Assembly: GCF_026210795.1 (NCBI RefSeq)
Contig: NC_089433.1
Span: forward strand, 1,885,001-1,949,000
DNA from: Rhizophagus irregularis
Lineage: Eukaryota; Glomeromycota; Glomeromycetes; Glomerales; Glomeraceae
DNA: 64,000 nucleotides
Reading direction: 5' to 3'
The notes beneath the pieces were generated by a model, which searched no databases, was not told where the DNA came from, and was given only the letters and a program-made list of their open reading frames with translations. Position numbers and translations under genes: made by a program. Shown here one piece after another: positions 23,776 to 64,000 of the stretch; positions within the stretch are counted from its first letter, which is position 1, and every line of letters begins with the position of its first letter.

Positions 23776-23817
23776 CATTTGCAAATTGAATACGGCGTAA
23801 TATTACAAAAATTTACG
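23776..23817 (+). repeat. Left terminal inverted repeat of the giant element
   Basis: 42 bp beginning CATTTGCAAATTGAATACGG. Aligned gaplessly with the inverted right end, 30 positions match. The repeat merges inward into the left array of TTTACG-type repeats. Confidence 0.75.
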
Positions 23818-23969
23818 CCTGCGAAATACTCCGTAAATTTACATGACCTTCGAAAAATTACGCAACAGTAATATTTCGTAATTTCAACGCAATATTTTGT
23901 AAGTTTACGCGTAATATTTCGTAGAATTACAGTGTAATATTGCCATGTATGTAAATTTTACATCGTAGA

Positions 23970-24470
23970 ATTTCTTAGATTTACGGTGCAATATTTTGAA
24001 ACTTTTCGAAAATGTAATATTTCATAATTTTACGTCATGGGATTTTCGTAGGTTTACGGGTGCAATATTTCGAAACTTTTCGAAATGTAATAAATATTTC
24101 GTAATTTTACGTTGTAGGATTTTCGTAGGTTTACGGGTGCAATATTTCGAAACTTTTCGAAAGTGTAATATTTCATAATTTTACGTCGTAGGATTTTCGT
24201 AGGTTTACGGGTGCAATATTTCGAAACTTTTCGAAAATGTAATATTTCGTAATTTTACGTCGTAGGATTTCGTAGGTTTACGGTATAATATTTCGAAACT
24301 TTTCTGAAGGTATAATATTTCGTAATTTTACATCGCAGAATTTCGTAGGTTTACGGTATAATATTTCGAAACTTTTCCGAAAGTATAACATTTCATAATT
24401 TTACATCGCAGAATTTTGCAGGTTTACGGTACAATATTTCGAAACTTTTCCAAAATATTATTATTTCGCG
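23970..24470. repeat. About seven copies of a 74-bp repeat (left end array)
   Basis: The unit includes GCAATATTTCGAAACTTTTC, then GTAATATTTCGTAATTTTACG, then a GTAGGATTTTCGTAGGTTTA block. Units diverge towards the inside of the element. Short blocks (AATATTTCG, TTTTACG) recur in the 51-bp array at the opposite end. Confidence 0.85.
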
Positions 24471-24479
24471 AACTTTTTT

Positions 24480-24850
24480 CACAAATTCAAGTGATTAATA
24501 TATGTAATTACAAAATAATATTTTTCACTGTAACTTACACGTAATATTTTATAAATTTATGTAATTTTTGTATTTTTATTCAAAATATAGCTACAATAAA
24601 TAATTTGTATTTAAAACTATCATAATATTGCGTTCAATCTCGTCAATAGAATTTTTTTAATCTTATTTGTCGCTCATCTTCATTTATTTGACTTTCGTTC
24701 TTTAACTTTTTATTTTTCAACTTCACTTCTATTTCATCTGTGATTAATATTTTGCTATATCTAATATTATAAAATAAAAGTCATTTGGATAACATTATTT
24801 GTTAATATCAAAAGGATGTGTTGTAAAAACAAATTGTTATTAAAACTTAA
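24480..24850. other. AT-rich spacer, nothing recognised
   Basis: About 370 bp between two tandem arrays. No ORF, splice-bounded gene or repeat was recognised. Confidence 0.5.
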
Positions 24851-25076
24851 CCTATAAACATAATTGTAATAAAGTCGTACGAACATTAACGAAATTATGA
24901 AGTACATACCTTCAGTCCTTTTACACTGCTACGTTGATAGCATGCGTTAAATTCATTTCTGCATCAACGAATATTACAAGATCAAAAGTTAGACCAACAG
25001 TTATCATTATGCGTGATTATTAATATTTTTTATAAAAAAAAAGTAAACTTACGAACATTAACGAAATTGTGAGGTA

Positions 25077-26142
25077 CACTCCCCGGTAAAAAGTATCCGA
25101 CCACCCTAAAAATTAAAAAATCTTAAAAAATTCAGTTGGCCCAACAATAAATTTATATTTACTTTACTAAAAATGACCAATTTTTTGAAATATTTTTATA
25201 GACCTAGATACAATGGCTTTCAAAACAATTGTGCAATTATTTTGTAAAATTTTTAAAATATATCAAGATATATTTAAGGTATTTTTGAGATTAAAATATT
25301 AAAATAATATCAAAGTTAATTATATTATAATAATAAAATAATAACAAAAACATTAAAAAATTATTGTGATATTATTTTAAGTTATTTTTATAGACCTAGA
25401 TACAATACAATTACAAAATAATAGCAAAAATATAATAAAAACATTTTGATGTATTAAATGTATTTTTATAGTATTTTAAAATTATTACAAAATCATTTCA
25501 AAAAATTGGCCATTTTTAGTAAAGTATTTTAAAAGTTTGAGACATGAGACACTTTTTTAAAAGTGTTTTTTTAGCTTAATTATTAGTAAAAATTGGCGGA
25601 CATTTTTAATTCTAAAAATGGCAAAATTCTTAACTTTTTAACTAGAGCAGTTACGGCCAAATGAATTCCAGAAATCAATTCTTTGACTAAAAAATAGCTT
25701 ATGTTTAAAAAATCAGAAAGATTGGACTGGTAGTTGCCGAAAAATCCACCACTGAAGATCATAATTTTTATATGTAAAAACGGTAAAATCACCATTTTTG
25801 CCAAATTTTAGTATAAAAATTATGATCTTCAGTGGTGGATTTTTCGGCAACTACCAGTCCAATCTTTCTGATTTTTTAAACATAAGCTACTTTTTAGTCA
25901 AAGAATTGATTTCTGGAATTCATTTGGCCGTAACTGCTCTAGTTAAAAAGTTAAGAATTTTGCCATTTTTAGAATTAAAAATGTCCGCCAATTTTTACTA
26001 ATAATTAAGCTAAAAAAACACTTTTAAAAAAGTGTCTCATGTCTCAAACTTTTAAAATAAATATAAATTTATTGTTGGGCCAACTGAATTTTTTAAGATT
26101 TTTTAATTTTTAGGGTGGTCGGATACTTTTTACCGGGGAGTG
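25077..26142. mobile_element. Tc1/mariner-like palindromic element, TA duplication
   Basis: The inverted ends are CACTCCCCGGTAAAAAGTAT, and the flanking dinucleotide TA is duplicated (25075-25076 and 26143-26144). Removing it restores the tandem-repeat unit. The element is almost wholly palindromic about a centre near 25797: each arm is about 345 bp once the nested element at 25162 is removed. TA duplication and the absence of a transposase indicate a non-autonomous Tc1/mariner-type element. The mirrored arms give matching spurious ORFs on both strands. Confidence 0.88.
25162..25524. mobile_element. 363-bp TA-flanked MITE nested in the left arm
   Basis: Inverted ends CTTTACTAAAAATGRCCAAT extend about 30 bp and are flanked by TA on both sides (25160-25161 and 25525-25526). 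It is present only in the left arm of the surrounding palindrome, so it inserted after the palindrome formed. It has TAGACCTAGATACAA repeats inside and no ORF. Confidence 0.85.
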
Positions 26143-27789
26143 TACATACCTTCCACTCCTTCTACACTATTACGTTGAGAACATGCGTTAAATTCATCTC
26201 TACATCAAACAAACATTACAAGTTCAAAAAGTTGGACCAAACAGTTGTGATTATTATTAAAAAGTCGTAAACATACGAACATTAACGAAATTAAGGAATA
26301 CATACCTTCCATCCCTTCTACACTATTACGTTGGGAGCACGCGTTAACTTTATTTCTACAAGTTCAAAAGGTTAAACCAACAGTTTCAATATGCGTGATT
26401 ATTAATATTTTTTATAAAAAAGACGTAAACATACAAACATTAATGAAATCGTGAAGTATATACCTTCCATTTCTTCTACACTACTACGTTGAGAGCGTTA
26501 AATTCATCTCTACATCAAACAAACATTACAAGTTCAAAAAGTTGGACCAAACAGTTGTGATTATTATTAAAAAGTCGTAAACATACGAACATTAACGAAA
26601 TTAAGGAATACATACCTTCTATCCCTTCTACACTATTACGTTAAGAGCACGCGTTAACTTTATTTCTATAAGTTCAAAAAGTTAAACTAACAGTTTCAAT
26701 ATGCGTGATTATAAATATTTTTTATAAAAAAGACGTAAACATACGAACATTAACGAAATCGTGAAGTACATACCTTCCATTCCTTCTACACTACTACGTC
26801 AAACAAACAATTACAAGTTCAAAAAGTTGGACCAACAGTTGTGATTATTATTAAAAAGTCGTAAACCTACGAACATTAACGAAATTAAGGAATATATACC
26901 TTCCATCTCTTCTACACTATTACGTTGAGAGCACGCGTTAACTTTATTTCTACAAGTTCAAAAAGTTAAACCAACAGTTTCAATATGCGTGATTATTAAT
27001 ATTTTTTATAAAAAAAGACGTAAACATACGAACATTAACGAAATCGTGAAGTACATACCTTCCATTCCTTTTACACTACTACGTTGAGAGCGTTAAATTC
27101 ATTTCTGCATCAACGAATATTCAAGTTCAATAAGTTGGGCCAACAGTTATCATTTTATGTGATTATTAATATTTTTATAAAAAAGACGTAAACATACGAA
27201 CATTAACGAAATTATAAAGTACAAATACCTTCCATTCCTTCTACACTACTACATTGAAAGCACGCGTTAACTTTATTTCTACAAGTTCAAAAAGTTAAAC
27301 CAACAGTTCATTATGCGTGATTATTAATATTTTTTATAAAAAAGATGTAAACACATTAACGAAATTACAAAGTACAAATACCTTCCATTCCTTCTACACT
27401 ACTACATTGAGAGCATGCGTTAATTTTATTTTTACTTTATAAGTTCAAAAGTTAGACCAACAGTTATAATTATTAATATTGTATAAAATAGTTAAATTAT
27501 GGAGTATAAATACTTTCCATACCTTTACCATTATATTGTACGCAAAACTTTCCATGAACAATTATTAATATTATGAAATAGTCGTAAACCTACAAATATT
27601 AATGAAATTATGAAATATAAATAACTTCCATACTTCTACTATATTGAAAGTACGCGTTCATTTTTCCAGCAGCTGTTGCAAAGCTTTTTCATGTATAATT
27701 TATTAATATTATAAATATTCATAAAGCCTATGAATATATATAAATACTTTCCATGATACTTCTGCTAGTCTTCTGCTACGCAAATGTAC

Positions 27790-28240
27790 AATGAGCGGTC
27801 CTTGCAAAATAGAGCATATAGAGAATATTAAGTTTGTTTATTTAATTCGTGTTTAGCTATTTTTAGATGATCACATGAACACATGTATATGCCATAATAG
27901 GTTAATTTATCAAATTTATTAGATTTATAAAATTAATTCGTAATCTGTGAGTCAAATTATATGATTTTGGTAGAGTCCTAAAGAATTCTGACCTCGACTA
28001 AATCAAATTGAAATCAGATTTTGATCTATTAAAAAAAAAATTCTTGCATGATAAATATAAAATTAAGAGAAATATGCATGACGTGTTGATAATATATACT
28101 ATATAAATAATATAACAAATAACTAGAGGTTAATTTGTAACACTTTTCACAAATTTATAATTTCTTATGGTCGGCACTTGGCATCAGACTTGATAGAAAT
28201 AAATTTAACTTTCCAAATATTGCGAAAGAGGAACAAAAAA
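27790..28240. other. AT-rich spacer, nothing recognised
   Basis: About 450 bp between the left arrays and the triple gene repeat. No gene or repeat was recognised apart from A/T runs. Confidence 0.5.
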
Positions 28241-28653
28241 ATGAATTTTAACAAAATTGATAAATTTTGTGCGATCAAATTCAAAATAATTTTGTGTTTC
28301 ATGGATAAAAATTCTTTTATTTGTTTAACAGTTATCAGCCAAATGAGAAAAACTCAAATTAATAAAATTTTATATATAAATTAATCACAAAAACGTAAAA
28401 TTTATTGATTTTTTTTTGTTTTTTGAAGAGAGATGCTCTTTTAAATGATTATCAAATAAATTTAATTTATAAAATTTAGAGGAGTGGGGGTATTTTTTTT
28501 TTGAAATTGTACATATCAATTACTAATTCGTAATATTATATATATTATTAATATATTCACCAGTCCTGCCAAACCAATAAAAAAAATAATAAATTTATTA
28601 AAACAAATAAACATATATATAATTATCTTATGCATATAATAAAATTCACCTTA

Positions 28654-29930
28654 TTATACATCATCACATCATCATCTTCATCATCTTCAGTTTCATTTCC
28701 ACTTTCTTCTTCCTCATAGCTATTATCTTCAAAATCAGAATAATTTATGCCCGTTTGATTATTGATTTTTTTCTTTAAAGAATAATATGATTGATTAGCC
28801 ATGAAATGATATTTTATTAAATACTACTACAAAATTACAAACTTACTAAAAATTTTTTAACTTTTTGTTTCATGATATTCTTTTTCAACATTATTTCGTC
28901 ATGATTTGGGTTCAAAATTGTTGAGCAGATCGCAAGAACATATGCGATTTCTGCATTAGAATGGTCATTTTGGAGGACTCCGCTCACTAAAACAATCGAA
29001 GAATTTTTGTCCTTGGGATTCATCTTTGTAAACAGGCTTTCATAACAACTTTTAACCTCGGGTTTTCTTTTTCATTTTGCAATTTCAGACGGCCCGGCAT
29101 TTGTGTTTATAGGTGGTAAACGGGATCCGAATATAGAAAAAATAGCCTCCCTTGATTTTGAGGACAATGTTCCTCTTACGGACCGTACTTGTTTTGTTAA
29201 CTACGAAGAAAGTTAATACTTAATATTTTATTTTATTTTATTAAACATTTTGTTACTATCGAATAAAGACTTACTTGTTTATGTATATTCTCGTTGTAAA
29301 ACGAGATCCAATCGTCTTCAGTAAAATTAGAGAAAAAACTTGCATGGTTCAGTGATAAATATCCTTCAACCGCTCCACAACATTCATCTTTTGTTGGGTA
29401 AATCGATACTTTTATTAATAATTTCGAAACATTTTTCACAACATCCTAAAATTAGTTGAAATTCAAAATAATTAGAATGTAAATAAATAATAAAACTAAA
29501 TATTTCAAAGATATTCTTACCGCTATGAATGATTCTTTAACGCTTGATGTCAAATTTATTTTATCAGAAAGTAAAGTTTTTAACTCGGATTTAAACTCTT
29601 GTATTTCTTTACTTAAAGTATCGATTTTATTTTCAATCTTTGTTAATCGATCTACCACAATTACAATAAATATTAATTAATTACAAGATAATTTTATTAA
29701 TTTCTTAAATATTTGCGAATACCTTCAATTTTTGAATTTACAGGAAGCCATTTCTTAGTCTGAGTAACATAAATTTCGTCATTGATGGTTTCGTTGGTGT
29801 TGATGTTGGTTTTACTGCTGTTGCTTCTACTTCTGATTCGGCCTCTATCACTGCGCTTATGATTCCCTTCGATTAGCAATTCCTCAATTTTCTTACGAGA
29901 GGATTCTCTCAATTTATTTCCTGATTCCAT
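28654..29930 (-). pseudogene. Unrecognised coiled-coil protein, tandem copy 1 (broken)
   Basis: Exons 29930-29723, 29651-29521, 29445-29275, 29200-28847 and 28772-28654 share splice sites with tandem copy 3. A TGA in exon 4 (near 29079) stands where copies 2 and 3 have TGG in AKWK. A small in-frame deletion follows near 28980. The N-terminus is polar and basic (RKKIEELLIEGNHKRSD), then comes a heptad-like stretch (DRLTKIENKIDTLSKEIQEF). Function is unknown. The shared splice pattern shows it was once the same gene. Confidence 0.75.
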
Positions 29931-29994
29931 AATGATACTTTTGAAAAATGGGATTTCTTACAATTTAAGAAAAAAAGAAATATTTCTGAAGGAA

Positions 29995-31010
29995 AAAAAT
30001 TGACCATTATTTATGAAAAAAAAAAACTCTTTAAACCCAAATCAAGCAATTTTTCGTACCAGTCATTAACAGAAACTTTCGAATACTCAATAATTACATC
30101 ATGCAAATTTTCGTACCAGTCATTAAGCAGAACCGCAGAAACTCTCTTAGTAATAATTATGTCAGTTGAGGAAATAAAAACATATACACATGAACATAAG
30201 GATAAATTCGCATAATTACTCATTATTCTAAACCAGAAAAAGAAACTTTCTTAGTAATAATTATGTCAGTTGAGGAAATAAAAACAAATGCACGTGAACA
30301 TAAGGATAAATTCACATAATTTCGATTACTTACTCATTATTCTAAACCAGGTAATTTTTTCGTACCAGTCATTAAAGTAGAACCGCAGAAACTTTCTTAG
30401 TAATAATTATGTCAGTTGAGGAAATAAAAACACGCACGTGAACATAAGGATAATTTCGATTACTTACTCATTATTCTAAACTAGGCGTACCAGTCATTAA
30501 AGCAGTAACCGCAGAAACCTTCGAATATTCAATAATTATATCACTTTATATGGAAATAAATAATTACGCGTGAACATGAGTTTTTTCCTTGTTATTATTA
30601 TGGATAGAACCGCATGATTTCGATACTTACTCATTATACTAAACCAAGCAATTTTTCGACAAGTCATTAAAGTAGAATCCGCAGGAACCTTGAACCTTCG
30701 AATATTTAATAATTATATCATTGTTATATCATATATGGAAATAAAACATAAACACGTGAACATGAGTTTTATTATTATGGATAGAAATTCGCATGATTTC
30801 GATACTTACTCATTATACTAAACTAAGCAATTTTTCGTACAAGTCATTAAAGTAGAATTTGCAGGAACTGCAGAAACCTTCGCATACTTTGTAGTAATAA
30901 TTATGTCAGTCGTATCTTACATGGAAACAAATAAACATTAAAGTTTTTCTTTGCACGATAAAAAATTTGTATAATTTCGAACATAAGCATGCATACACAG
31001 AATAAAAAAA
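29995..31010. repeat. Minor tandem repeats upstream of coiled-coil copy 1
   Basis: About eight imperfect units of 100-140 bp contain ACCAGTCATTAA(A), GCAGAAAC, GTAATAATTATGTCAGT and TACTCATTATTCTAAACCA. They lie directly 5' of the minus-strand gene, so they may hold its promoter or protein-binding sites. ORFs here are repeat by-products. Confidence 0.7.
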
Positions 31011-31564
31011 TCTAATGATACCACTCCTGAGTGAAATAAAATTCCAACTCGATATATATTAGTCAGGGTTGTTTGATCAGCATTTTTGATATTAGTTGGT
31101 GTGATCGATCAGACAATGAACTCCAGTCTAACCAATAAAAAATAGAACAATTTACGAATCAATTGTAACTATGAATTTTAACAAAATTACGATCAAATTC
31201 AAAATAATTTTTTGTGTTTCATGTATAAAAATTCTTTTATTTGTTTAACAGTTATCAGCCAAATGAGAAAACTCAAATTAATAAAATTTTATATACAAAT
31301 TAATCGCAAAAACGTAAAATTTTATTGATTTGTTTTTTGAAGGAGATGCTCTTTTAAATGATTATCAAATAAATGTAATTTATAAAATTTAGAAGAGTGG
31401 GGGCATTTTTTTTTTTGAAATTATACATATCAATTACTAATTCGTAATATTTGTTATATTATTAATATATTCACCAGTCCTACCAAACCAATAAAAAAAA
31501 TAATAAATTTATTAAAAAAAATAAACATATATATAATTATCTTATGCATATAAAATTCACCTTA

Positions 31565-32832
31565 TTATACATCATCTTCTTCATCATCTTCAGTTTCATT
31601 TCCACCTTCTTCTTCCTCATAGTTATTATCTTCAAAATCGGAATATTTTATGGCCGTTTGATTATTGATTTTTTCCTTTAAAGAATAATATGATTGATTA
31701 GCCATGAAATGATATTTTATTAAATACTACTACAAAATTACAAACTTGCTAAAAATTTTTTAACCTTTTGTTTCATGATATTCTTTTTCAACATTATTTC
31801 GTCATGATGTGGGTTCAAAATTGTTGAGCAGGTCGCAAGAACATATGCGAGTTCTGCATTAGAATTGCCACCTTGGAGAACTCTGTCAATAACGCTTGCT
31901 AAAACAATTGAAGAATTTTTGTCCTTGGGATTCATTTTTTTGAACAGGCCTTCAAAACAATCTTTAACTTCAGATTTTCTTTTCCATTTTGCTACTTCAG
32001 ACGGCCCGGCATTTGTGTTTATAGGTGGTAAACGGGATCCGAATATAGAAAAAATAGCCTCCATTGATTTCAAGGACAATGTTCTTCTTATGGACCGTAC
32101 TTGTTTTATTAACTTTACGAAGAAAGTTAAAGTTAATACTTAATATTTTATTTATTTTATTAAACATTTTGTTATCGAATAAGGACTTACTTGTTTATGT
32201 ATATTCTCGTTATAATACGCGATCCAATCGTCTTCAGTAAAATTAGAGAAAAAACTCGCATGGTTCAGTATTAAATATCCTTCAACCGCTCCATAACATT
32301 CATCTTTTGTTGGGTAAATTGATACTTTTATTAATAATTTCAAAACATTTTTCACAACATCCTAAAATTAGTCGAAATTCAAAATAATTAGAATGTAAAT
32401 AAATAATAAAACTAAATATTTCAAAGATATTCCTACCACTATGAATGATTCTTTAACGCTTGATGACAAATTTATTTTATCAGAAAGTAAAGTTTTTAAC
32501 TCGGATTTAAACTCGTGTATTTTTTTACTTAAAGTATCAATTTTATTTTCAATCTTTGTTAATCGATCTACCATAATTATAATAAATATTAATTATAAGA
32601 TAATTTTATTAATTTCTTAAATATTTGCGAATACCTTCAATTTTTGAATTTGCAGGAAGCCATCTCTTAGTTTGAAGAATGCTAACTTCGTCATTAATGG
32701 TTTCGTTGGTGTTGATGTTGGTTTGTTTCTGCTTCGGCTTTGGCTTCTATCACTGCGCTTATGATTCCCTTCGATTAGCAATTCCTCAATTTTCTTACGA
32801 GAGGACTCTCTCAATTTATTTCCTGATTCCAT
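31565..32832 (-). pseudogene. Unrecognised coiled-coil protein, tandem copy 2 (frameshifted)
   Basis: It has the same five-exon layout as copy 3. Exon 1 lacks about 10 nt near 32725 relative to copy 3, which shifts the frame before the first splice site. Exons 2-4 stay open, including the exon 4 helical domain (WKRKSEVKDCFEGLFKKMN ... SNAELAYVLATC), and the acidic tail exon is also recognisable. A downstream start could give a shorter protein without the basic N-terminus; I cannot tell whether one is used. Confidence 0.75.
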
Positions 32833-32894
32833 AATGATACTTTTGAAAAAGTGGGATTTCTTACAATTTAAGAAAAAAAAATATTTCTGAAGGA

Positions 32895-33960
32895 AAAAAA
32901 TTGACCATTATTTATGAAAAAAAAAACTCTTTAAACCCAAATCAAGCAATTTTTCGTACCAGTCATTAACAGAAACTTTCGAATACTCAATAATTACATC
33001 ATGCAAATTTTCGTACCAGTCATTAAGCAGAACCGCAGAAACTCTCTTAGTAATAATTATGTCAGTTGAGGAAATAAAAACATATACATATGAACATAAG
33101 GATAAATTCGCATAATTACTCATTATTCTAAACCAGGAAAAGAAACTTTCTTAGTAATAATTATGTCAGTTGAGGAAATAAAAACAAATGCACGTGAACA
33201 TAAGGATAAATTCACATAATTTCGATTACTTACTCATTATTCTAAACCAGGTAATTTTTTCGTACCAGTCATTAAAGTAGAACCGCAGAAACTTTTTTAG
33301 TAATAATTATGTCAGTTGAAAAAATAAAAACACGCACGTGAACATAAGGATAATTTCGATTACTTACTCATTATTCTAAACCAGGCGTACCAGTCATTAA
33401 AGCAGTAACCGCAGAAACCTTCGAATATTCAATAATTATATCACTTTATATGGAAATAAATAATTACGCGTGAACATGAGTTTTTTCCTTGTTATTATTA
33501 TGGATAGAACCGCATGATTTCGATACTTACTCATTATACTAAACCAAGCAATTTTTCGACAAGTCATTAAAGTAGAATCCGCAGGAACCTTAAACCTTCG
33601 AATATTTAATAATTATATCATTGTTATATCATATATGGAAATAAAACATAAACACGTGAACATGAGTTTTATTATTATGGATAGAAATTCGCATGATTTC
33701 GATACTTACTTATTATACTAAACCAAGCAATTTTTCGTACAAGTCATTAAAGTAGAATTCGCAGAAACTGCAGAAACCTTCGCATACTTAGTAGTAATAA
33801 TTATGTCAGTCGTATCTTACATGGAAACAATAAACATTAAAGTTTTTCTTTGTACGATAAAAAATTTATATAATTTCGAAAACATAAGCATGCATACACA
33901 TTATAAAAAATCTAATGATACACTCCTGAGTGAAATAAAATTCCAACTCATTATATATTA
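32895..33960. repeat. Minor tandem repeats upstream of coiled-coil copy 2
   Basis: Same unit types and order as at 29995-31010, with few differences. They lie between the start of copy 2 and the distal end of copy 3. Confidence 0.7.
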
Positions 33961-34411
33961 GTCAGGGTTGTTTGATCAGCATTTTTTGATCACGAATTTA
34001 TTAGTTGGTGTGACCGATCAGACAATGAACTCCAGTCTAACCAATAAAAAATAGAACAATTTTACACATTCAATTGTAACTATGAATTTTAACAAAATTG
34101 CGATCAAATTCAAAATAATTTTTTGTGTTTCATATATAAAAATTCTTTATTGTTTAACAGTTATCAGCCAAATGAGAAAAACTCAAATTAATAAAATTTT
34201 ATATACAAATTAATCACAAAAACGTAAAATTTATTGATTTGTTTTTTGAAGGAGATGCTCTTTTAAATGACATATCAATTACTAATTCGTAATATTATAT
34301 TATTAATATGAATTCACCAGTCCTGCCAAACCAATAAAAAAAAATAATAAATTTATTAAAACAAATAAACATATATATAATTATCTTATGCATATAATAA
34401 AATTTACCTTA

Positions 34412-35677
34412 TTATACATCATCTTCTTCATCATCTTCAGTTTCATTTCCACTTTCTTCTTCCTCATAGTTATTATCTTCAAAATCGGAATAAATTATGA
34501 CCGTTTGACTATTGATTTTTTTCTTTAAAGATAATATGATTAGCCATGAAATCTTATTTTATTAAATACTACTATAAAATTACAAACTTACTAAAAATTT
34601 TTTAACTTTTTGTTTCATGATATTCTTTTTCAACATTATTTCGTTATGATTTGAGTTCAAAATTGTTGAGCAGATCGCAAGAATATATGCAAGTTCTGCA
34701 TTAGAATGGCCATTTTGGAGGACTTTGTCAATAACGCTTGTTAAAACAATCGAAGAATTTTTGTTTTTGGGATTCATTTTTTTGAACAAGCCTTCAAAAC
34801 AACTTTTAACCTCGGGTTTTTTTTTCCATTTTGCAATTTCAGATGGCCCGGCATTTGTGTTTATAGGTGGTAAACGGGATCTGAATATAGAAAAAATAGC
34901 CTCCCTTGATTTCGAGGACAATGTTCCTCTTACGGACCGTACTTGTTTTGTTAACTACGAAGAAAGTTAATACTTAATATTTTATTTTATTTTATTAAAC
35001 ATTTTGTTATCAAATAAGGACTTACTTGTTTATGTATATTCTCGTTGTAAAACGAGATCCAATCGTCTTCAGTAAAATTAGAGAAAAAACTCGCATGGTT
35101 CAGTGATAAATATCCTTCAACCGCTCCACAACATTCATCTTTTGTTGGGTAAATCGATACTTTTATTAATAATTTCGAAACATTTTTCACAACATCCTAA
35201 AATTAGTCGAAATTCAAAATAATTAGAATGTAAATAAATAATAAAATTAAATATTTTAAAGATATTTTTACCGCTATGAATGATTCTTTAACACTTGATG
35301 ACAAATTTATTTTATCAGAAAGTAAAGTTTTTAACTCGGATTTAAACTCTTGTATTTCTTCACTTAAAGTATCGATTTTATTTTCAATCTTTGTTAATCG
35401 ATCTACCATAATTACAATAAATATTAATTACAAGATAATTTTATTAATTCCTTAAATATTTGCGAATACCTTCAATTTTTGAATTTGCAGGAAGCCATCT
35501 CTTAGTTTGAAGAACGTTAATTTCGTCATTGATGGTTTCGCTGGTGTTGATGTTAGTTTTACTGCTGTTGTTTCTGCTTCGGCTTTGGCTTCTATCACTG
35601 CACTTATGATTCCCTTCGATTAGCAATTCCTCAATTTTCTTACGAGAAGATTCTCTCAATTTATTTCCTGATTCCAT
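34412..35677 (-). CDS. Unrecognised coiled-coil protein, intact, 327 aa
   Basis: Exons 35677-35470, 35402-35272, 35196-35026, 34954-34592 and 34522-34412 join with four GT-AG introns of 67-75 nt into an uninterrupted 327-residue frame. The order is: basic, Ser/Arg-rich N-terminus (about 1-60); coiled coil DRLTKIENKIDTLSEEIQEF (about 70-100); a conserved block with VSIYPTKDE and DDWISFYNENIH (about 115-170); a helical domain with EIAKWKKKPEVKSCFEGLF and SNAELAYILAIC (about 175-290); and an acidic tail (YEEEESGNETEDDEEDD). Basic head, coiled coil and acidic tail suggest an oligomeric nuclear DNA-binding protein. I recognise no named domain. It sits in the giant transposon beside a transposase gene, so a TnpA-like accessory role is possible but unproven. 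Confidence 0.8.
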
Positions 35678-35734
35678 AATGATACTTTTGAAAAAGTGGG
35701 ATTTCTTACAATTTAAGAAAAAAAAATATTTCTG

Positions 35735-37300: not shown

Positions 37301-37548
37301 CCAACTCATTATATATTAGTCAGGGTTGTTTGATCAGCATTTTTTGATCACGAATTTATTAGTTGGTATAACCGATCAGACATGAACAGTCTAACCAATA
37401 AAAATAGAACAATTTACGCATTCAACCGTAACTTTACGGAAATCCATAAAACTTACCTTATCAAAAAAGGAAAAGTAATAGTCATATTTTAGATTTGTAA
37501 CGTTATACAAGATATTAGTATCGCTGTCGTTAAATATAATAAACTTTA

Positions 37549-40500
37549 TTAAAATATGTATTTATTTACAAAATATTCATTTGTTTTATTAAACTGGGGT
37601 ACTATATGTACGATATCTTGTATTGCTTCTATATCAATAAAGTTATAGATTTCAGTAATTTCTAGTAAGGGACACCCATAAAGATGTGGTTGATTTTGAA
37701 ATTTGAAGTCATACCACTGAATTAATGCGAGATTTAATGGAATATTTTGATTCTTAAGTTCTATTTTCGCTATTAATAAAACCTTAATTTAAAAAATCAT
37801 TTTTAAATTAGCAATATTATATAAATATGTAGTATCAAATCAATTAAAAAATTACCTGCCCGTAACAAATGCCTTGATCAGAAGCGTAATCAAATAATTC
37901 ATCAGAATTCATACGAACAGACACATTACTATACCAAGGTCTGCCATAATAACTGTTAGTAGCACGCATTATTGCACCATTTTCTATTATAACTGATCTG
38001 TATATTGTCACTTGGCTTTCATTTGCAATACTTTCGTGATCCATATACAGATTTAAACATTCCAAAAAATTGTCAAATCCAGATCTCATTTTGTGGTCTA
38101 TATTAGCCTGTTCTACAAAAAAATCATGGGCATCTTTTAATAGAAATTTGAAAAGTATTGCTGTAAATTTAAATATACGAGGGATAGTAGCTGAATTTGG
38201 TAATCGATGGGTTATATTTGTTATTGATTGTCGCCGAATCTATAAAAATTAATTTTTTTTAGAAATTTAACATAGTATTGTGTATTTTATATAAATAATA
38301 TTTGCTATTTTCATTATTTGAACTTCAATATTTTTTTTATTACTTAATCGGTAGGGATTCTTAACGTATTCTTTGTGAAGACTTTCGTAAGTCTCCGTAG
38401 TATATCCATTAACTGCACCAAATGATCGAATCGAATCAATTATATGATATGCCCATGAATGCAGTTTTGGTAATTTTAACTCTGAGGGGGACATACATTG
38501 GAGAATTTTGATGAACATTTGAGACCAATTGTTTATAGATTCCTGAAATTATAATTTTAAGTATTAGTGGACAGGCGTTGTTTTATAATAATTATGTAGT
38601 ACATACCCTAAATTTGGCCAAATCACTTTCTTTGAAATTTTCATATCGACTAATTGCATACATTTCATTCCAAGCTTCGTAAAGTTTTGCCAGATCTTCA
38701 TTCTTTACAAAATTTTCATCATCCTCATTATTTACAAACAAATTGTCCACTACAAAAACCATTACTTTCATCAGATTGCGATACTCATTAGCTGTTAATC
38801 TGGCTATTGATTGTATGCCATTTGTAAAGATCTTCAAACCGGGAAATCTTGGTATTGTGGCTAATTGATGATCTACTTCATCAACTAAAGTTTTGCCACA
38901 TTGCGCCCCTAAAAGTTTTTTCGTATAATCGATTTGATAATGAAAGAGGCCTAAATCGAGATGATGCATTCTATCAGGCACTGTGGCTTGATAGATATTT
39001 ATATTACTTAATATAAATTAATAAAAATAAACTCATGTTAGTGTAATGCTTGTAATGCTTACGTGATTTGGTGAAATGGCTGGATGCCTAACAAATATTA
39101 TGTAAACTTATGGCAAATTCCAAAAAAAATTAGATATATTTTCAATGCAAACGGAATTTCCTGAGTTTTGATTAAAATACTGCTGCATATTAACATGAGT
39201 TCGTGGTGTTATATCATCAATTTGTAAATTAAGATCAGCAAGATTGTCTCTTGTGACTAGACAAAAATGACAAGGATGTTTCGACATTGGTGATTTGTAT
39301 GTAAGACAGTACGTTGCAGCTTCCGGCCAGTCAGATATTATAGCTGAAACTCTAGGATAAAACCAAATCATTTCGTTATTTAAAAATAGATTAATGCCAT
39401 TTTTATTTAATTTTAATAAAGGGTCTAGTAACAATTCCAAAGATTTATGGAAGCATTCGCGAACAGCAATCTTAAATGTTTCAGACTTCCTTTCAGTAAT
39501 ATTATTAGATTTTAAGATCGGCAGATACGCTAATAATTGCTTTGCATCTTTCTTACACAGGTCGAAAAGTGAAAAATCAGGCATCAATCAGTCACCAATC
39601 GGTCACCAATCAGGTACCTGATTGGTGACTGATTGGTGCCTGATTGGCATTTTCGCCAAATACCGTCACCAATCAGGCAGTTTGCTAACTTTTGATCCAG
39701 TGATCAGAAAAGGATGAAATATAGCTCATTGGAATCGTCTCAACAAGACGAATCTAATGGTAGTAAAATCGCATCTCTAGGATTAATATTTGATGAGAAA
39801 TTAAGTAAAATATAAAAATGAAAATGTATTATTTATATTTTATTTAATTTTTTATTAACTATTAATCCTAGAGATGCGATTTTACTACCATTAGATTCGT
39901 CTTGTTGAGACGATTCCAATGAGCTATATTTCATCTTTTTCTGATCACTGGATCAAAAGTTAGTAAACTGCCTGATTGGTGACGGTATTTGGCGAAAATG
40001 CCAATCAGTCACCAATCAGTCACCAATCAGTCACCAATCAGCTACCTGATTGGTGACTGATTGGTGCCTGATTTTTCACTTTTCGACCTGTGTTATTACG
40101 CCTCCAATTTTTAATATTACCAATAGACAAGTAAATGGGATGGAGTTGACTTTTTCCTAGTGTGTCAACATTTGTAGCGTCAGAATATAATATTAAAGAT
40201 AAAAGCCTGGCACCAGGTGGCAGGAATTTTTCCGCATTTTCCCACCATATCCCAGTATTTTGTTCGCTAAACTCCCTTTCACCGTTATGCTTTAAGTTTA
40301 TATGAAGATTAGTAAATATCCTATGATATTAAGTTGTATATTTCATACGAAAGTATAAATAATTACCTCAACTTTCTCAAAAGTTAACGCAAAATTTTGT
40401 GATATGTCCGAAATTGACAAAATATTTTTTATACAGTTTATTAAAGACTGATGATAAAGAAAATACTCATTATTATTATAATTCATTATACTAGTTTTAG

Positions 40501-41130
40501 TATAATTTAAATTTGGTAGTTTCATATTATCCATATATTTGCGGCCTTGTTCGATAGATCTTGGAAGAGGTGATTTATCTAAATTTGCATGTTTATTAAA
40601 GAATTTAATTATAGCATTTCCTGTTGCATTGTTAAGTTTATGTTTCGTAACTAATGCCATTAAATCACCATATGCTTCACTTGGGTAATTAACATTAATT
40701 TCTGGTTTGGATTTTTCTTCATTCAATTCTGAATCAGAATCTTCCAAGATATTTTCAAAGACATTTTCATTTTCATCGTGGTCTATTTCTTCTATATTTT
40801 GATCAATTTCACCAACCTCTGAAATTGACATCATACTTTGAAAACTCTGATTATTTATTTCCGAGTCTGTACTTTTATTATCAGAAAGATCTTCGCATGA
40901 ATCTTCACGGACCATCTATAAAATTAATTATGTTAAAAAAGAAATTCAAAAAATTTTATAATTTCCTATTTTCTTTACCTCAATATCATGATTATTAGTT
41001 TTATGTTCAAATTCTTCTAATTCTTCACTATCGCTACTATCGTTATTAGGCGGAGTACAAAAATTCTTATGTTGAGTGTATGCAGACCTTGTCTGAAGTA
41101 CCTTGGACAAAAAGGGCATTTATATGACAT
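37549..41130 (-). pseudogene. Plavaka/Tnp2-like transposase gene, multi-exon, decayed
   Basis: The N-terminus at 41130 is a zinc finger (MSYKCPFCPRYF...AYTQHKNFC), with a 1-nt deletion near 41089 that shifts its frame. Exon 2 (40915-40367) is acidic. Exon 3 (from 40289) has the core ILYSDATNVD...HPIYLSIGNIKNWRR, then WPEAATYCLTYKSP and KHPCHFCLV. Exon 4 (from 38986) starts ATVPDRMHHLDLGLFHYQ. The last exon ends ALIQWYDFKFQNQPHLYGCP...TNEYFVNKYIF with a stop at 37549-37551. These match Plavaka-type transposases of fungi (EnSpm/CACTA-related). The gene is split by a 537-bp element at 39556, and an in-frame TAA lies at 39110-39108. It would have excised the giant element, but this copy looks inactive. 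Confidence 0.85.
39556..40092. mobile_element. 537-bp CACA-ended near-palindrome inside transposase exon
   Basis: The ends are CACAGGTCGAAAAGTG, inverted at the right. The arms are nearly perfect inverted repeats of about 235 bp around an AT-rich loop (about 39795-39850). TTA is duplicated at 39553-39555 and 40093-40095. Taking it out with one TTA rejoins the exon in frame as IKNWRRKKDAKQLLAY. The outer arms repeat CAATCAGTCAC many times. The termini match the family at 11187 and 49679. Confidence 0.9.
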
Positions 41131-41725
41131 TTTTAAGAGTATTTTATTTACTTGAATTTAAACTTTACAAATTAATTAAAAAATTATTTGCTCATTTATG
41201 TCAATTTATAAACGTTTGCATAATGGTGTAGTTAGCCGAAAAATAATTAGCCACAACATGATCCGGCTCAGGCGTAGATCATTGTGAAAAGTTTACCTTT
41301 TTTTAAATTTTTCTACGAAAAGTGGCGTATTTCGATAATCATAAAGTGAGTTTTGGGCGAAGCTATATTTCAAATTTGAAACAAGCCTCGCCTAATATAA
41401 GCTAAAATCTCTAAAATCCTATTTTTGAAACTCTATAGATCAGATCATGTTAATGGAAACATAAGCCGGTTAATCAGATCTACAAAAATTGGTTTTTCCC
41501 CTGATCGATTTTAATTTTATAATAAATATAATAAACATAAGCTATTATGGATATATAACCAACCCGATCAATCAAAAATTGTGCTCAATTGTAACTGTGA
41601 TCTGGTTGGTTATACATTTTTTCGGTCAATAGTTGTGCATTAAAAGACCACAAGCATTTTTCTATATATTTATCAATTAATAAGCTTAGAACAATTTCGT
41701 TATAATCATGCACAGCTTATTATTT
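41131..41725. other. Spacer upstream of transposase gene
   Basis: About 600 bp, holding the presumed promoter of the minus-strand transposase gene. Around 41550-41620 a short imperfect inverted repeat is visible (TATAACCAACC...GGTTGGTTATA). No ORF is supported. Confidence 0.45.
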
Positions 41726-42420
41726 TATAAAATCTGAATATTTATTGCGAGATATTTCGGATCTAGAAATATAGTAGGGCTTTGCATAAAAGATTGTCAT
41801 TTATTTATTAACTTTGTTGTAAATGTAAACGAAACCTTATAAAATCTGAATATTTATTGCGAGATATTTCGGATCTAGAAATATAGTAGGGCTTTGCATA
41901 AAAGATTGTCATTTATTTATTAACTTTGTTGTAAATGTAAACGAAACCTTATAAAATTTGAATATTTATTGCGAAATATTTCGGATCTAGAAATATAGTA
42001 GGGCTTTGCATGAAAGATTATCATTTATCTATTACTTTGTTGTAAATGTAAACGAAAACCTTATAAAATTTGAATATTTATTGCGAAATATTTCAGATCT
42101 AGAAATATTGTAGGCTTTGCATGAAAGATTGTCATTTATCTATTAACTTTAATGTAAACAAAAACCTTATAAAATTTGAATATTTATTGCGAAATATTTC
42201 GGATCTAGAAATATTGTAGGGCTTTACACGAAAGATTGTTATTTATCTATTAACTTTAATGTAAACGAAAACCTTATAAAATTTGAATGTTTATTCGGAT
42301 CTAGAAATATTGTAGGGCTTTGCATGAAAGATTGTCATTTATCTATTAACTTTGTTGTAAATATAATGAAAACCTTATATTTATTGCAAAATATTTCGAT
42401 CTAGAAATATATAGGCTTTG
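41726..42420. repeat. About six copies of a 112-bp repeat
   Basis: The unit reads CCTTATAAAATCTGAATATT, then TTGCGAGATATTTCGGATCT, then AGAAATATAGTAGGGCTTTG, AAAGATTGTCATTTAT and TTAACTTTGTTGTAAATG. Units 1 and 2 are almost identical, and later ones lose segments. There is no coding potential. Confidence 0.85.
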
Positions 42421-42555
42421 CATGAAATTAAACTTGTTGTGTAATCGATCATTACGCATAATGATCAAATAATTTTTTTTAACAAACAACAGTATATAGA
42501 AAGATTTACAAACAATAAAATATATAAATATGCATTGTTTCTGTTCATCTTCTGT

Positions 42556-43180
42556 AGGCTTGGTCCTCATCTTTTTTGTCTGCAGATTTAGTCTCTCGAG
42601 CGTCTTGCTCATTTTTCATTTCATGCCTTTTTTCTTCTACTGGATTTGCAAATGTTCCCAGATTTTTTTTTTTTTTTTTTTTTAGAAATATATGCAAGTT
42701 CATGTCTTTTCTATTTTCTTTTTCACACCCCTTAACAAAATCCTTTTCAAAAAAAAAAATTTGCAACGCAATGCAAGTCCACTAACAGAAAAAAACTTAT
42801 GCTATTGTTTCACAGGCATCCTTTAAACTCTCCTTTATCCATTAACCAACCCCTTTCAATCTATCCGTTTAGGCTTGGTCCTCATCTTTTTTGTCTGCAG
42901 ATTTAGTCTCTCGAGCGTCTTGCTCATTTTTCATTTCATGCCTTTTTTCTTCTACTGGATTTGCAAATGTTCCCAGATTTTTTTTTTTTTTAGAAATATA
43001 TGCAAGTTCATGTCTTTTCTATTTCTTTTTCACACCCCTTAACAAATCCTTTCAAAAAAAAAAAAAAAAATTTTGCAACGCAATGCAAGTCCACTAACAG
43101 AAAAAAAACTCATGCTATTGTTTCACAGGGATCCTTCAAACTCTCCTTTATCCATTAACCAACCCCTTTCTTTTCTCTCT
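42556..43180. repeat. Tandem duplication of about 314 bp upstream of + gene
   Basis: Two direct copies start with TAGGCTTGGTCCTCATCTTT at about 42556 and 42870. Each contains a T-run and an A-run of differing length. The second copy ends shortly before the ATG of the + strand coiled-coil paralog, so promoter duplication is possible. The ORFs present are short and mirrored. Confidence 0.8.
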
Positions 43181-43245
43181 CAATTCATCCGTTAAACTCC
43201 TTTCTTCTCTTCTATCCGTTAAATTTCTCTTTCATTTTTTCAATC

Positions 43246-44626
43246 ATGGACAAAAATAATAATAATAAAAAAAAAAAACACTGAAACAGTCGAGCATGTA
43301 GACAAACGGAGAAAAACCGACGAATCTTCCGATGAATCAATTAATGGTTGGTTAAATTATATATTTTTGAAAAATAAAAATAATTATTACTAATATATTA
43401 TTATTTATATTATTTATATTCTACTGTTATAAAGAAGCTTTAACAAAAATATTGCGCCAGAATACAAAAATTTTATCCAAACTGGATATAATTATTTCCA
43501 ACCAAAAGGCTTTAGAAAACAGAGTATCGAAAGTAGAAGAATCGGTCGACAAAAATAATGATAATAATCAAGGGGATGAAGAATATATAAAGGTAAGACC
43601 CAAAAATACAAATATTTACGTAAATCATGGTTGAACATTTAGTAGTAATTCCTCATTAAATCATTATATTCTTGATTATAGAAAATAATCAAAGAAGTTG
43701 CCAAAAAGTTACTTGAAGTTTCAATATATCCTACCCCGATGAACTTCAAGAGTTCACTAATAATTATATGAATGAAAACTACGACGATTTTATTAAACGG
43801 TTTAAAAGATATGATAAATGGATTATATTTTATGAAAAAAACATTGCTTCTTCCGTAAGTTTTGAGAAATTACGATTTTACATTAATTTATTGAAATTTA
43901 AATTTAAGATCTTTTCTTTAGCTTCTAGCTAAACATCGTAGTGCCTGGGGTTCTTTAGCTTCTAAAGTGAAAGACATAATGTATGTCGTTTTTAAAGAAT
44001 TTAACCTTCCCACAATCCCTGCCGTAAACACGGCATTAAAAGAAAGTGAAATAAGAAAATGGAAAGGGACCCCAGCCGTAAAAAATTGTTACGGTAATTT
44101 ATTTAAAAAAATCAAGAATCTGGATCCAGAGACATATATGTCGAGAATCCTCCAAATACTTAAAGGCAAAAATCAATTATCTAATATGCAAATTGCATAT
44201 GCAATAAGTATTTGTGAAATTATTTTAAATCTGAAAAATTTACATATTCAGGTTACAGAATCTGTCATAAAACCCGTTTTAACGAAGAATTTGGTAAGCA
44301 TTAGAAATTTGAATAAATAGTAATATTTAAAAACTAATTTTGTTTTACTTCTTAGAAAAAAATTACAAGTAAGGATAATTATTCATATTCCGATAATGAC
44401 GAAATAGAAGCTTCCCAAGAAGCTGAAGAGACAAACAGGAGTTGATGAAGCAGCAGAAGTTGATGAAGCAGAAGAAGTAGCTGACGAAGCAGAAGAAGTA
44501 CAAGAAGAGGAAGAAAACGAGATAAGAGAAGAAGATGAGGAGGAAGGTGGAAGAATTTATATAAGTAGTACAGATGAAGAGACAAAAGAAAGAATGAAGC
44601 GATTAAAAAAACAATATAAAAAATAA
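43246..44626 (+). pseudogene. Diverged inverted paralog of the coiled-coil gene
   Basis: Exons 43246-43346, 43435-43592, 43682-43854, 43922-44293 and 44356-44626 have the same number, phases and order as the intact copy at 34412-35677. The proteins share VSIYPT, KWIIFYEKNI (against DWISFYNENI), KWKGTPAVKNCYGNLFKK, SNMQIAYAISICEIILN and an acidic tail starting KKI. This paralog ends with a basic ERMKRLKKQYKK. Lesions are one extra base in an A-run near 43275, a frameshift near 43739 and another near 44435. Homopolymer sequencing error could explain the first only. Its opposite orientation and much lower identity make it an older duplicate than the tandem three. Confidence 0.8.
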
Positions 44627-45112
44627 AATAATAATTGACTACGCATATATTTTTTATATTTTAATATCCCCCCATATATTTTAATATCCCATTTATTTTA
44701 ATAAAGGAGATAATTTTCAAGTCAATAAATAAATACATGTTCGGGTAAAATATATTTGATCATTATATAGTTGGCCACTTTATTTTGTGTAAATGTGAAA
44801 TATTAAATAAGAATGATTATTTTAGAAACTTGAATTACCAGATGAGATAAGTTACGTAGCGTAATATAAGTTATTGAATTTATTACACAACTGAACGCAA
44901 CCATTTTCTGAACTTTTAGCCCGTTTTGAATACCAAAAACAACCAACCAAAATTAGATAATTTCTGTTTACGTGATATTTAAGAAAAAGACATAAGTTAT
45001 AATTTCCTTTTTAATCCTAACAAAATCAGTTACAGGAAATTCGAAAATAAAAAAATTTTATTGGATAATTTTTGTACAACAAAATCCGACCGAAAAATGT
45101 ACCCGACCGGAA
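44627..45112. other. Spacer between paralog and right-end array
   Basis: About 490 bp of AT-rich sequence. No ORF or recognised repeat apart from a repeated ATATTTTAATATCCC near 44660. Confidence 0.5.
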
Positions 45113-46990
45113 ATGAACAGGGCTAATATTTACGATCACGTATTATTACGGAATATTTTGACCGTAATACTTCGGAACATTTACGATATCGTATTATTAT
45201 GGAATATTTCGACCGTAATGCTTCAGAACATTTTTGATCACGTATTATTACGGAATATTTTGATCATAATGCTTCGGAACATTTTCAATCACGTATTATT
45301 ACGGAATATTTCGATCATAATGCTTCAAAACATTTTCGATCACGTATTATTACGGAATATTTCGATCGTAATATTTCGAAACATTTACGATCACGTATTA
45401 TTACGGAATATTTCGATCGTAATGCTTTGGAACAATTGCGATATCATAATTCTACGGAATATTTCGATCGTAATATTTCGAAACATTTACGATCACGAAT
45501 ATTTTGATCGTAATGCTTCAGAATATTTACAATATCGTAATTCTACGGAATATTTCGATCGTAATGCTTCAGAACAATTGCGATATCATATTATTACGGA
45601 ATATTTCGATCATAATGCTTCAGAACATTTACGATATCATAATTCTACAGAATATTTTGATCGTAATACTTCGGAATATTTACGATATCGTAATTCTACG
45701 GAATATTTCGATCGTAATGTTTCGAAACATTTACGATCACGTATTATTACGGAATATTTTGACCATAATGTTTCAAAACATTTGCGATCACGTATTATTA
45801 CGGAATATTTTGACTGTAATATTTCGAAACATTTGCGATCACGTATTATTACGGAATATTTTGACCGTAATGCTTCGAAACATTTACGATCACGTATTAT
45901 TACGGAATATTTCGATCGTAATGTTTCGGAACATTTACGATCACGTATTATTTTGGAATATTTTGATCGTAATACTTTGGAACATTTACGATCACGTATT
46001 ATTACGGAATATTTCAATCATAATGCTTCGGAACAATTGCGATATCATAATTCTACGGAATATTTTGACCGTAATGTTTCGAAACATTTACGATCACGTA
46101 TTATTATGGAATATTTTGACCGTAATGTTTCAAAACATTTGCGATCACGTATTATTACGGAATATTTTGACCGTAATGCTTCGAAACATTTACGATCACG
46201 TATTATTACGGAATATTTTGACCGTAATGCTTCAAAACATTTACGATCACGTATTATTATGGAATATTTCGACCGTAATGCTTCAGAACATTTTCGATCA
46301 CGTATTATTACAGAATATTTTGACCGTAATGTTTCGAAATATTTGCGATCACGTATTATTACAGAATATTTCGATCGTAATATTTCGGAACATTTACGAT
46401 CACGTATTATTTCAGAATATTTCGATCATAATGCTTCGGAATATTTACGATCACGTATTATTACGGAATATTTTGACCGTAATGTTTTGAAACATTTGCG
46501 ATCACGTATTATTACGGAATATTTCGATCGTAATGTTTCGGAACATTTACGATCATGTATTATTTTGGAATATTTCGATCATAATGCTTCGGAACATTTA
46601 CGATATCATATTATTACAGAATATTTTGACCGTAATGCTTTAAAACATTTACGATCCCGTATTATTTCGGAATATTTTGATCGTAATGCTTCGGAACATT
46701 TACGATCACGTATTATTACGGAATATTTCGATCGTAATGCTTCGGAACAATTGCGATATCATAATTCTACAGAATATTTTGACCGTAATGTTTCGAAACA
46801 TTTACGATCACGTATTATTACGGAATATTTCGATCGTAATGTTTCGGAACATTTACGATTATGTATTATTTCGGAATATTTCAATCGTAATGTTTCGGAA
46901 CATTTACGATATCATATTATTACAGAATATTTTGACCGTAATGCTTCGAAACATTTACGATCCCGTATTATTTTGGAATATTTCGATTGT
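45113..46990. repeat. About 36 copies of a 51-bp repeat (right end array)
   Basis: The unit contains GAATATTTCGATCGTAATGC, then TTCGGAACATTTACGATCAC, then GTATTATTACG. Because 51 is a multiple of three, the array stays open over long stretches: a 629-codon frame (17-residue period EYFDRNASEHLRSRIIT), a second + frame and part of the minus strand. Variants mix TTTCGATCG, TTTTGACCG and TTTTGATCG, and some units have CATAATTCTACG in place of the last block. It lies just inside the right end of the giant element. Coding is unlikely. Confidence 0.88.
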
Positions 46991-47066
46991 AAAATTACGT
47001 AGATTTACGGAAATCCGTAAATCTACGAAACATTATGCCGTAAATGTACGTAATTTTACGAAAATC

Positions 47067-47108
47067 CGTAAACTTACGGAACATTATGCCGTGTTTAAAT
47101 TCCTGATG
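47067..47108 (-). repeat. Right terminal inverted repeat of the giant element
   Basis: Read inverted it begins CATCAGGAATTTAAACACGG, and it matches the left end at 30 of 42 positions without gaps. The last base abuts the AA flank and LINE C sequence. Confidence 0.75.
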
Positions 47109-62841: not shown

Positions 62842-62990
62842 AGGACCCCGAATAATACTAATATAACTCACAAATGATCGGCATGCATTTACTATTAACT
62901 CTACGCAACTTTTTTTTTATAGTAACGCTACGCAAATCCAAATCTTAGTTCAAAAAAATTTTTGTTACTAATATAATTCATTTCACATTT
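62842..62990. mobile_element. Fragment related to the AGGACCCCG MITE family
   Basis: AGGACCCCGAATAATAC, then CTCACAAATGATCGGCATG, resembles the left 45 bp of the MITE at 58127. The opposite end was not found before the window edge, so the element is partial or extends beyond it. The 72-bp array that follows may lie inside this element. Confidence 0.5.
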
Positions 62991-62994
62991 TTTC

Positions 62995-63780: not shown

Positions 63781-64000
63781 ACTTTTTGTTACTATATACA
63801 ATTAATTACCAAAATCCGTAATATTGCAAATTTCATAAATATATTACGGACCCATCCTTAATGGTTTTGCGCAACTTAATTTTTATCAATATTATACAAT
63901 TGATCAACATATATTTATAAACTCTACGCAAACGTGATATGTGAGTTATCCCAAAATTGACCGATCTACGCAAACTCAATTTATGGGTTTAAAAAGTAAT

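Follow-up and report, generated by a model that had tools for sequence, protein, structure and literature searches.

A 23.3-kb Plavaka-type DNA transposon with an amplified second gene family in Rhizophagus irregularis

A 64,000-nucleotide stretch of the Rhizophagus irregularis genome (contig NC_089433.1, positions 1,885,001 to 1,949,000; hereafter, the window) contains, at window positions 23776..47108, a 23,333-bp DNA transposon with base-precise ends that carries a Plavaka transposase gene and a second gene family (accA and accB; hereafter, the partner) and that has moved as a unit. The copy in the window is damaged. The element is delimited by a break in a long interspersed nuclear element (LINE), by comparison with sister LINE copies, by its paired ends and by uninterrupted sites elsewhere in the genome. 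An earlier note, made from the sequence of the window alone, had described a LINE copy interrupted by 23.3 kb and resuming at the next base, 42-bp inverted repeats, AA at both flanks, a Plavaka/Tnp2-like transposase gene, four genes of a second family and large terminal arrays, and had inferred movement of the whole as one unit; all these claims are borne out below.

The interrupted LINE ends with CGGATGCAA at 23775 and restarts with AAGTTACTC at 47109, and elsewhere in the window, two sister copies of this LINE (6117-6161 and 55490-55534) cross the insertion site uninterrupted, with 2-3 mismatches. Flank comparison identifies the dinucleotide AA, at 23774..23775 on the left and at 47109..47110 on the right, as the two copies of a 2-bp target duplication. 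When the flanks are joined with a single AA, the resulting 168-bp sequence has insert-free genome matches at 90-95% identity (best 40 of 91 candidates), and these 40 matches span all or nearly all of its length. The terminal inverted repeats (TIRs), defined by end search, flank comparison and inverted-repeat scoring, are located at 23776..23817 (plus strand; CATTTG in the window copy) and at 47067..47108 (minus strand; ending ...CTGATG). On recomputation, they agree at 30 of 42 positions without gaps, compared with a maximum of 25 for other inverted stretches of the element and of 24 for the flanks on either strand.

We searched the genome assembly (146.7 Mb in 32 contigs) with a 70-bp left-end query and a 114-bp right-end query. 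The left end produced 19 matches, of which 18 start at the first base of the element and one is partial; the right end produced 29 matches, namely, 19 places (one at 78% identity) and 10 that are short or on the opposite strand. Pairing of the ends elsewhere in the genome, the absence of which had been named beforehand as grounds for refutation, was found for 13 of the 19 left ends, each with a similarly oriented right end lying 14,941 to 31,797 bp downstream. These 13 paired copies lie at different sites, and 12 of them have equal 2-bp flanks (7 TA, 3 AA, 1 TT and 1 TC), a number that was reached or exceeded in 11 of 100,000 shuffles (mean, 5.4); the 3-bp flanks are equal in none of the 13. 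The left ends start with CATC in 18 of 19 cases, the fifth base being T in 17 of these 18 (CATCTG in 17/19) and A in one (CATCA), and the right ends terminate in TGATG in 18 cases and in TAATG in one. Five copies share 98.0-98.7% identity in the transposase region. Uninterrupted target sites were identified at two of the four insertions tested, that is, for the window LINE and for the C32 copy, in which case five genome places run across the junction of the joined flanks. Altogether, 11 of the 13 pairs are uncontradicted, and two are positively confirmed by an uninterrupted site.

The transposase gene (37552..40867, minus strand), delineated by homology to a sister family described below, consists of seven predicted exon segments: 40867-40364; 40289-about 40094 and 39554-39111, which represent a single exon divided by a 537-bp insertion; 39017-38601; 38542-38276; 38122-37847; and 37740-37552. 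The window exon matches the Plavaka profile (PF18759) with an E-value of 1.3e-11 and 44.7 bits, and another giant copy reaches 105 bits (cut-off, 26.3); genome-wide, the best 123 of 180 candidate Plavaka matches were scored. PlavakaB transposons have been described (Kojima 2025, PMC12730594) as having CATCA..TGATG termini, 2-3-bp target duplications, and C(2)C and H(3-4)H motifs between the second D and the last E of the transposase. The giant family resembles PlavakaB in its transposase, its CATC left and TGATG right termini and its 2-bp duplications, so that the CAT ends and the 2-bp flank, which the earlier note had found not textbook for CACTA-type elements, are not anomalous, apart from the fifth left base. 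The differences include the CATCT left end (17/19), the size of 15-32 kb, the amplified partner and the long CpG-rich arrays. Within exon 39111-39554, CHFC follows ISDWPEA, a match made by eye only, and H(3-4)H was not recognised there. From these sequence features, the giant family can be called PlavakaB-type, with a left terminus that differs at the fifth base.

The partner family, recognised by homology, is represented in the window element by four genes, three on the minus strand and one on the plus strand. The three accA units, repeated every ~2.9 kb on the minus strand, are traced through their conserved last two exon segments: unit 1 (28838..29445; segments 29269-29445 and 28838-29200) has an in-frame stop, and in units 2 (31741..32361) and 3 (34583..35196), the last segment is open. 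The accB gene (43503..44317, plus strand) retains three conserved exon segments (43503-43607, 43723-43860 and 43922-44317) and is divergent to the transposase. Among the best 150 of 248 candidate partner matches scored in the genome, each paired giant copy has 1-4 accA matches, and in the copies that were read, the last exon is open in 10 of 13 accA and in 7 of 7 accB genes. The tandem accA paralogues (10 full last exons) group by position within the element across copies rather than by element. Between units that occupy equivalent positions, nonsynonymous changes are few (C1_1/C18_1, 4; C1_2/C18_2, 3; C1_3/C18_3, 5), with the third unit of the window copy further off (7 and 10), compared with 13-15 between neighbouring units inside C18. 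Because same-position units resemble each other across elements, the accA block apparently pre-dates the spread of the copies and travelled as one. For accB, the ratio of nonsynonymous to synonymous substitution rates (dN/dS) is below 1 in 13 of 15 pairs. In a tree of the partner family, accB joins the partner of the sister family (support 97/97), and accA forms a separate branch (84/97).

To assess the association with the transposase, 97 of the 150 partner places were kept; 53 rows of the accA type that belong to whole and truncated giant copies were left out, and the accB genes of the giants were included. At 81 of these 97 places, the partner lies within 10 kb of a Plavaka match, divergently in 80, where the chance of a random place being so close is at most about 2%. 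The pairing of partner and transposase persists across families that are ~60% identical. The most distant relative of the partner that could be aligned (C11:994499-994864), which is 25% identical to accA, lies ~2.8 kb from a Plavaka match (C11:997658), and the pairing may therefore be old.

The sister family has a transposase exon ~60% identical to that of the giant family over the compared exon (best 150 of 217 candidates scored) and copies of 9.7 kb, one pair of which is 99.65% identical. Ten sister end pairs, taken from the best 40 of 238 and the best 40 of 140 end matches, all have CATCA..TGATG ends, exactly those of PlavakaB, and equal 2-bp flanks; three of the ten span just ~3.5 kb. Including copy C24 (GT/GT), equal flanks are found in 11 of 12 sister copies. 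Copies C17 and C24 share a similar stretch (TGCAAT..CGT) directly to the left of the element despite their different sites, possibly through target preference or by chance.

Sixteen partner places lie more than 10 kb from a Plavaka match, and eight of these form one near-identical group (four were read, the others being assigned by position and score). Seven members of this group are located 4-5 kb from a Tnp2-type transposase (PF02992; best 96 of 332 matches scored), in the convergent orientation in all seven cases, and the eighth (C10:2386108) is ~27 kb from one. Two places that were read at length (C1 about 1,535,500-1,552,300 and C4 from 4,919,394) have in common a unit, 16.8 kb or more in length, with the Tnp2 transposase, a partner relative 34-36% identical to accA and one TTACG/TTCGAA-rich array; this unit is likely one mobile element. 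The Tnp2 units (C1:1542631, C4:4927770 and five more) resemble the giant family in having a partner relative and, as seen in the two that were read, an array containing TTACG and TTCGAAA, but differ in the transposase family, in the convergent arrangement of partner and transposase and in the single array of this kind seen.

Both ends of the giant element carry CpG-rich subterminal arrays, delineated by repeat, word and CpG counts: on the left (23868..24467), units of 22 and 73 bp with TTACG and TTTCGAA motifs, and on the right (45128..47092), 36.8 units of 51 bp followed by two diverged units, with TTACG and TATTTCGA motifs. The 73-bp unit on the left and the 51-bp unit on the right are unrelated in sequence but have motifs in common. 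In the window copy, 6-mers containing TTACG are ~20-30-fold enriched in the arrays relative to the interior, and TATTTCGA/GTTTCGAA/TTTCGAAA are enriched 26-69-fold; the arrays of the sister family share the TTACG and TTCGAA-type motifs. Windows with at least 8 TTACG/CGTAA per 500 bp account for 2/3 at the left end, 7/7 at the right end, 4/37 in the sister element (all near the ends) and 3/66 in the Tnp2 unit, against 0/331 in the controls, which comprised the window flanks, the element interior, the sister and Tnp2 flanks and a nested stretch. The CpG observed/expected ratio reaches 3.2 and 3.5 in the terminal arrays of the giant element, with 3.0-3.4 for the ends of the sister family and 1.7-1.8 for two internal arrays; it is 0.9-1.2 in the gene blocks, or 0.8-1.3 when LINE regions are included. 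The TA-CG context accounts for a share of 0.29-0.41 of the CpGs in the giant and sister arrays versus 0.11 in the interiors. Near the ends (18 of 19 right ends used, one left out), C>T/G>A changes at CpG occur at 2.1-2.6 times the rate at other C/G sites; this excess fits methylation without proving it, and CG methylation at transposons has been reported in R. irregularis (PMC8647823).

Plavaka itself, its ends, its duplication and large plant CACTA elements were already known. The available text of PMC12730594 mentions no partner gene or subterminal arrays for Plavaka, and in the literature searched on Plavaka, so far as the portions available go, we met no giant Plavaka family and no Plavaka partner gene. 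The closest parallel is provided by the plant CACTA elements, in particular En/Spm, where TNPA binds the subterminal repeats and is required together with TNPD, and the 20.5-kb Tgmt* (PMC2613891). En/Spm (TnpD and TnpA), Tam1 and Tgmt* resemble the giant family in combining a transposase and a second protein with asymmetric subterminal repeats, and Tgmt* is comparably large. The giant family differs in having CATC rather than CACTA ends and a 2-bp rather than 3-bp duplication, and in a partner that, from the DNA reading alone, appears to be a separate divergent gene, not a splice product, that is amplified and that has no Pfam match in the exons scanned. A canonical CACTA/EnSpm identity was rejected on the CATC/TGATG ends, the 2-bp duplication and the lack of equal 3-bp flanks. 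The VANDAL elements of Arabidopsis also encode an extra protein, VANC, but VANDAL transposases are Mutator-like and that of the giant family is Plavaka; any likeness of the partner to VANC would be one of function. The VANC proteins have an anti-silencing role (PMC10398659), and the 9-bp motifs to which VANC21 binds have built up as tandem repeats (PMC5735166).

We consider it likely that the giant elements constitute a PlavakaB-type (CMCT / CACTA-like) cut-and-paste family, with a DDE transposase and an array-binding partner. The copies have paired ends with equal 2-bp flanks, are similar to one another at unrelated loci and, at two sites, are matched by uninterrupted targets; the partner has stayed next to the transposase, and short motifs are common to both terminal arrays. 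By analogy with its family, the Plavaka DDE transposase (PF18759) would join the CATC...TGATG ends to target DNA cut with a 2-bp stagger, in many cases at TA. The partner, putatively an element-encoded DNA binder, would coat the subterminal arrays with their many TTACG/TTCGAA motifs, much as TnpA coats the En/Spm repeats, aiding the pairing of the ends. Duplication of the partner, with accB beside the transposase and accA in 1-4 tandem copies, and the lengthening of the arrays may have escalated together, and this escalation, along with nested insertions, would have brought the elements to 15-32 kb, compared with the 9.7 kb of the sister family.

Several observations weigh against this reading. 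With respect to mobility, six of the 19 left ends and six of the 19 right ends have no mate, the left end of the giant family is CATCT where that of PlavakaB is CATCA, the transposase exon of the window copy is interrupted, the flanks of the sister copy C17 are unequal (GT/TA), and at two of the four insertions tested, the left and right flanks derive from different places. With respect to the partner, accA dN/dS exceeds 1 in 9 of 45 pairs and is undefined in one more, on few changes; the partner tree carries a long-branch warning from the program; and the array motifs were chosen as the most enriched words, much of their excess being CpG excess. The last exon of the partner has no Pfam family (best E 0.098 across 21 members), and the single preceding exon segment scanned has no Pfam match either. 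AlphaFold produced an all-helical model of the last exon (mean predicted local distance difference test score (pLDDT) 71.7; predicted template modelling score (pTM) 0.67), for which Foldseek returned nothing at E <= 0.001 (best 1.8) and VIA-align no convincing structural match (best Z 4.2); against sequences from PDB, the best E-value of this exon was 0.025. Given the lack of a Pfam match for the exons scanned and of a convincing structural match, DNA binding by the partner can only be inferred.

The unmated ends and the flanks from two sites could be taken to indicate that the ends are separate smaller elements that flank unrelated DNA by chance, a reading to which we give practically no credence: it is refuted by the 13 same-orientation pairs at 14.9-31.8 kb, with common interiors, equal flanks and two uninterrupted sites. 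The two insertions in question, C18:1192194-1212616 (AA/TA) and C2:878317-902243 (AA/AA), yielded no uninterrupted site with their joined flanks. We read both copies as chimaeric because their left-flank repeats, at the four loci read for each, continue elsewhere into DNA different from the right flank; exchange among dispersed elements is the better explanation for them. The equal AA flank of the C2 copy is then coincidental, given that its two flanks come from different sites. These chimaeric copies suggest that exchange between dispersed copies is a possible source of rearrangement.

It is also conceivable, though improbable in our view, that the arrays and the amplified partners have no role in mobility and that an ordinary Plavaka grew through replication slippage, through unequal exchange and through nested insertions. 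From copy to copy, the arrays indeed differ in length and the accA genes in number (1-4 among the matches listed), the extra DNA of large copies includes nested transposons, the window copy has two private insertions, and some accA pairs have dN/dS above 1 as given above; yet the unrelated array units at the two ends and those of the sister family share the same short motifs, most last exons are open in the copies read (10/13 accA and 7/7 accB), and the partner stays with the transposase across families ~60% identical. We take more seriously, without expecting it to prevail, the possibility that the partner would act mainly as a VANC-like anti-silencer on the CpG-rich motif arrays and be dispensable for cutting. 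This would be in line with the CpG ratios of the arrays (3.2-3.5), with motifs common to both ends, the sister family and the Tnp2 unit, with the CpG C>T/G>A excess near the ends (2.1-2.6 times), as if these were methylated at times, with CG methylation of host transposons (PMC8647823), with the precedent of tandem-repeated 9-bp VANC21 sites (PMC5735166), and with a partner that is amplified and also found beside a different transposase. Conversely, the arrays adjoin the TIRs, where binders of the En/Spm type act, and the fixed divergent arrangement of partner and transposase is that expected of a transposition cofactor. The TnpA-like and VANC-like roles would both predict a binder evolving with tandem repeats, and the two could coexist. 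More doubtfully still, we propose that the partner, as a sequence-specific protein, and a TTACG/TTCGAA array, as its CpG-rich and self-multiplying landing site, might form a portable module, associated with the two unrelated transposase lineages Plavaka and Tnp2, that shields the ends from CG-methylation silencing in a fungus, with the giant family as an escalated form in which several paralogues evolve alongside kilobase arrays.

With these results, a large Plavaka-type family of an arbuscular mycorrhizal fungus is described down to its base-precise ends, 2-bp duplications and gene content. The available text of the published curation of R. irregularis indicates that DNA/TIR elements were kept solely at 1-17 kb (PMC11075540), and 12 of the 13 paired copies exceed this 17-kb limit. 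The analysis also ties to transposons a partner family without a Pfam match in the scanned exons, and predicts its DNA targets, so that end-binding and anti-silencing become directly testable in an organism whose CG methylation is already documented (PMC8647823).

Read from left to right, the window element opens with the left TIR and its array, followed by a 158-bp array and, all on the minus strand, three accA genes and the transposase; next come a 112-bp array, accB on the plus strand, the 51-bp array and the right TIR. The size of the element is accounted for by the tandemly amplified partner gene, the long terminal arrays and nested insertions. The two internal tandem arrays, detected by a repeat scan, are located at 26142..27480 (~158-bp units) and at 41725..42295 (112-bp units). 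One private insertion of ~1.06-1.07 kb (25079..26141, or 25074-26145 at its widest), absent from all five copies compared, has 93-bp inverted repeats (99% identical) that enclose a palindrome at 25525-26059 with 264-bp arms. The other, the 537-bp insertion inside the transposase exon (39556..40092), is a near-perfect palindrome bounded by CACAGG..CCTGTG, has duplicated TTA and is missing in all four other copies compared there.

Starship-type cargo elements combine a tyrosine-recombinase captain with host-gene cargo. Among the seven ORFs (open reading frames) of the element that were scanned, no recombinase was found, no search having been aimed at Starship captains; a DDE-type Plavaka transposase is found in its place, and in one large copy, some of the ORFs lack any match. 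The idea of a giant cargo carrier is unsupported in the four large or altered copies examined, the extra DNA of the C27 copy and of both C2 copies being transposase-related. The added DNA of the C27 copy includes a Tc1-like transposase, and that of the C2:902243 copy has an ORF 31% identical to the Tnp2 protein of the C2:5128870 copy. In the latter (C2:5111256-5128870), other sequence takes the place of ~11.5 kb of the interior and contains a Tnp2-type transposase as well as an open frame made up in part of a 147-bp tandem repeat; since this copy retains its two ends and equal TA flanks, a non-autonomous composite may have moved. The exception to the rejection of cargo is the 31.8-kb C7 copy, with a 5.8-kb insert (in the region C7:5206400-5215500) whose ends are inverted (CAGTCGATGTGCATGTCACA..) and which holds several ORFs that lack a Pfam match (four scanned, zero matches). 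Outside the element, the window contains long tandem arrays at 14524-16259 and 62981-63791, the first of which holds an inverted motif (GGTTATTAGTAACC).

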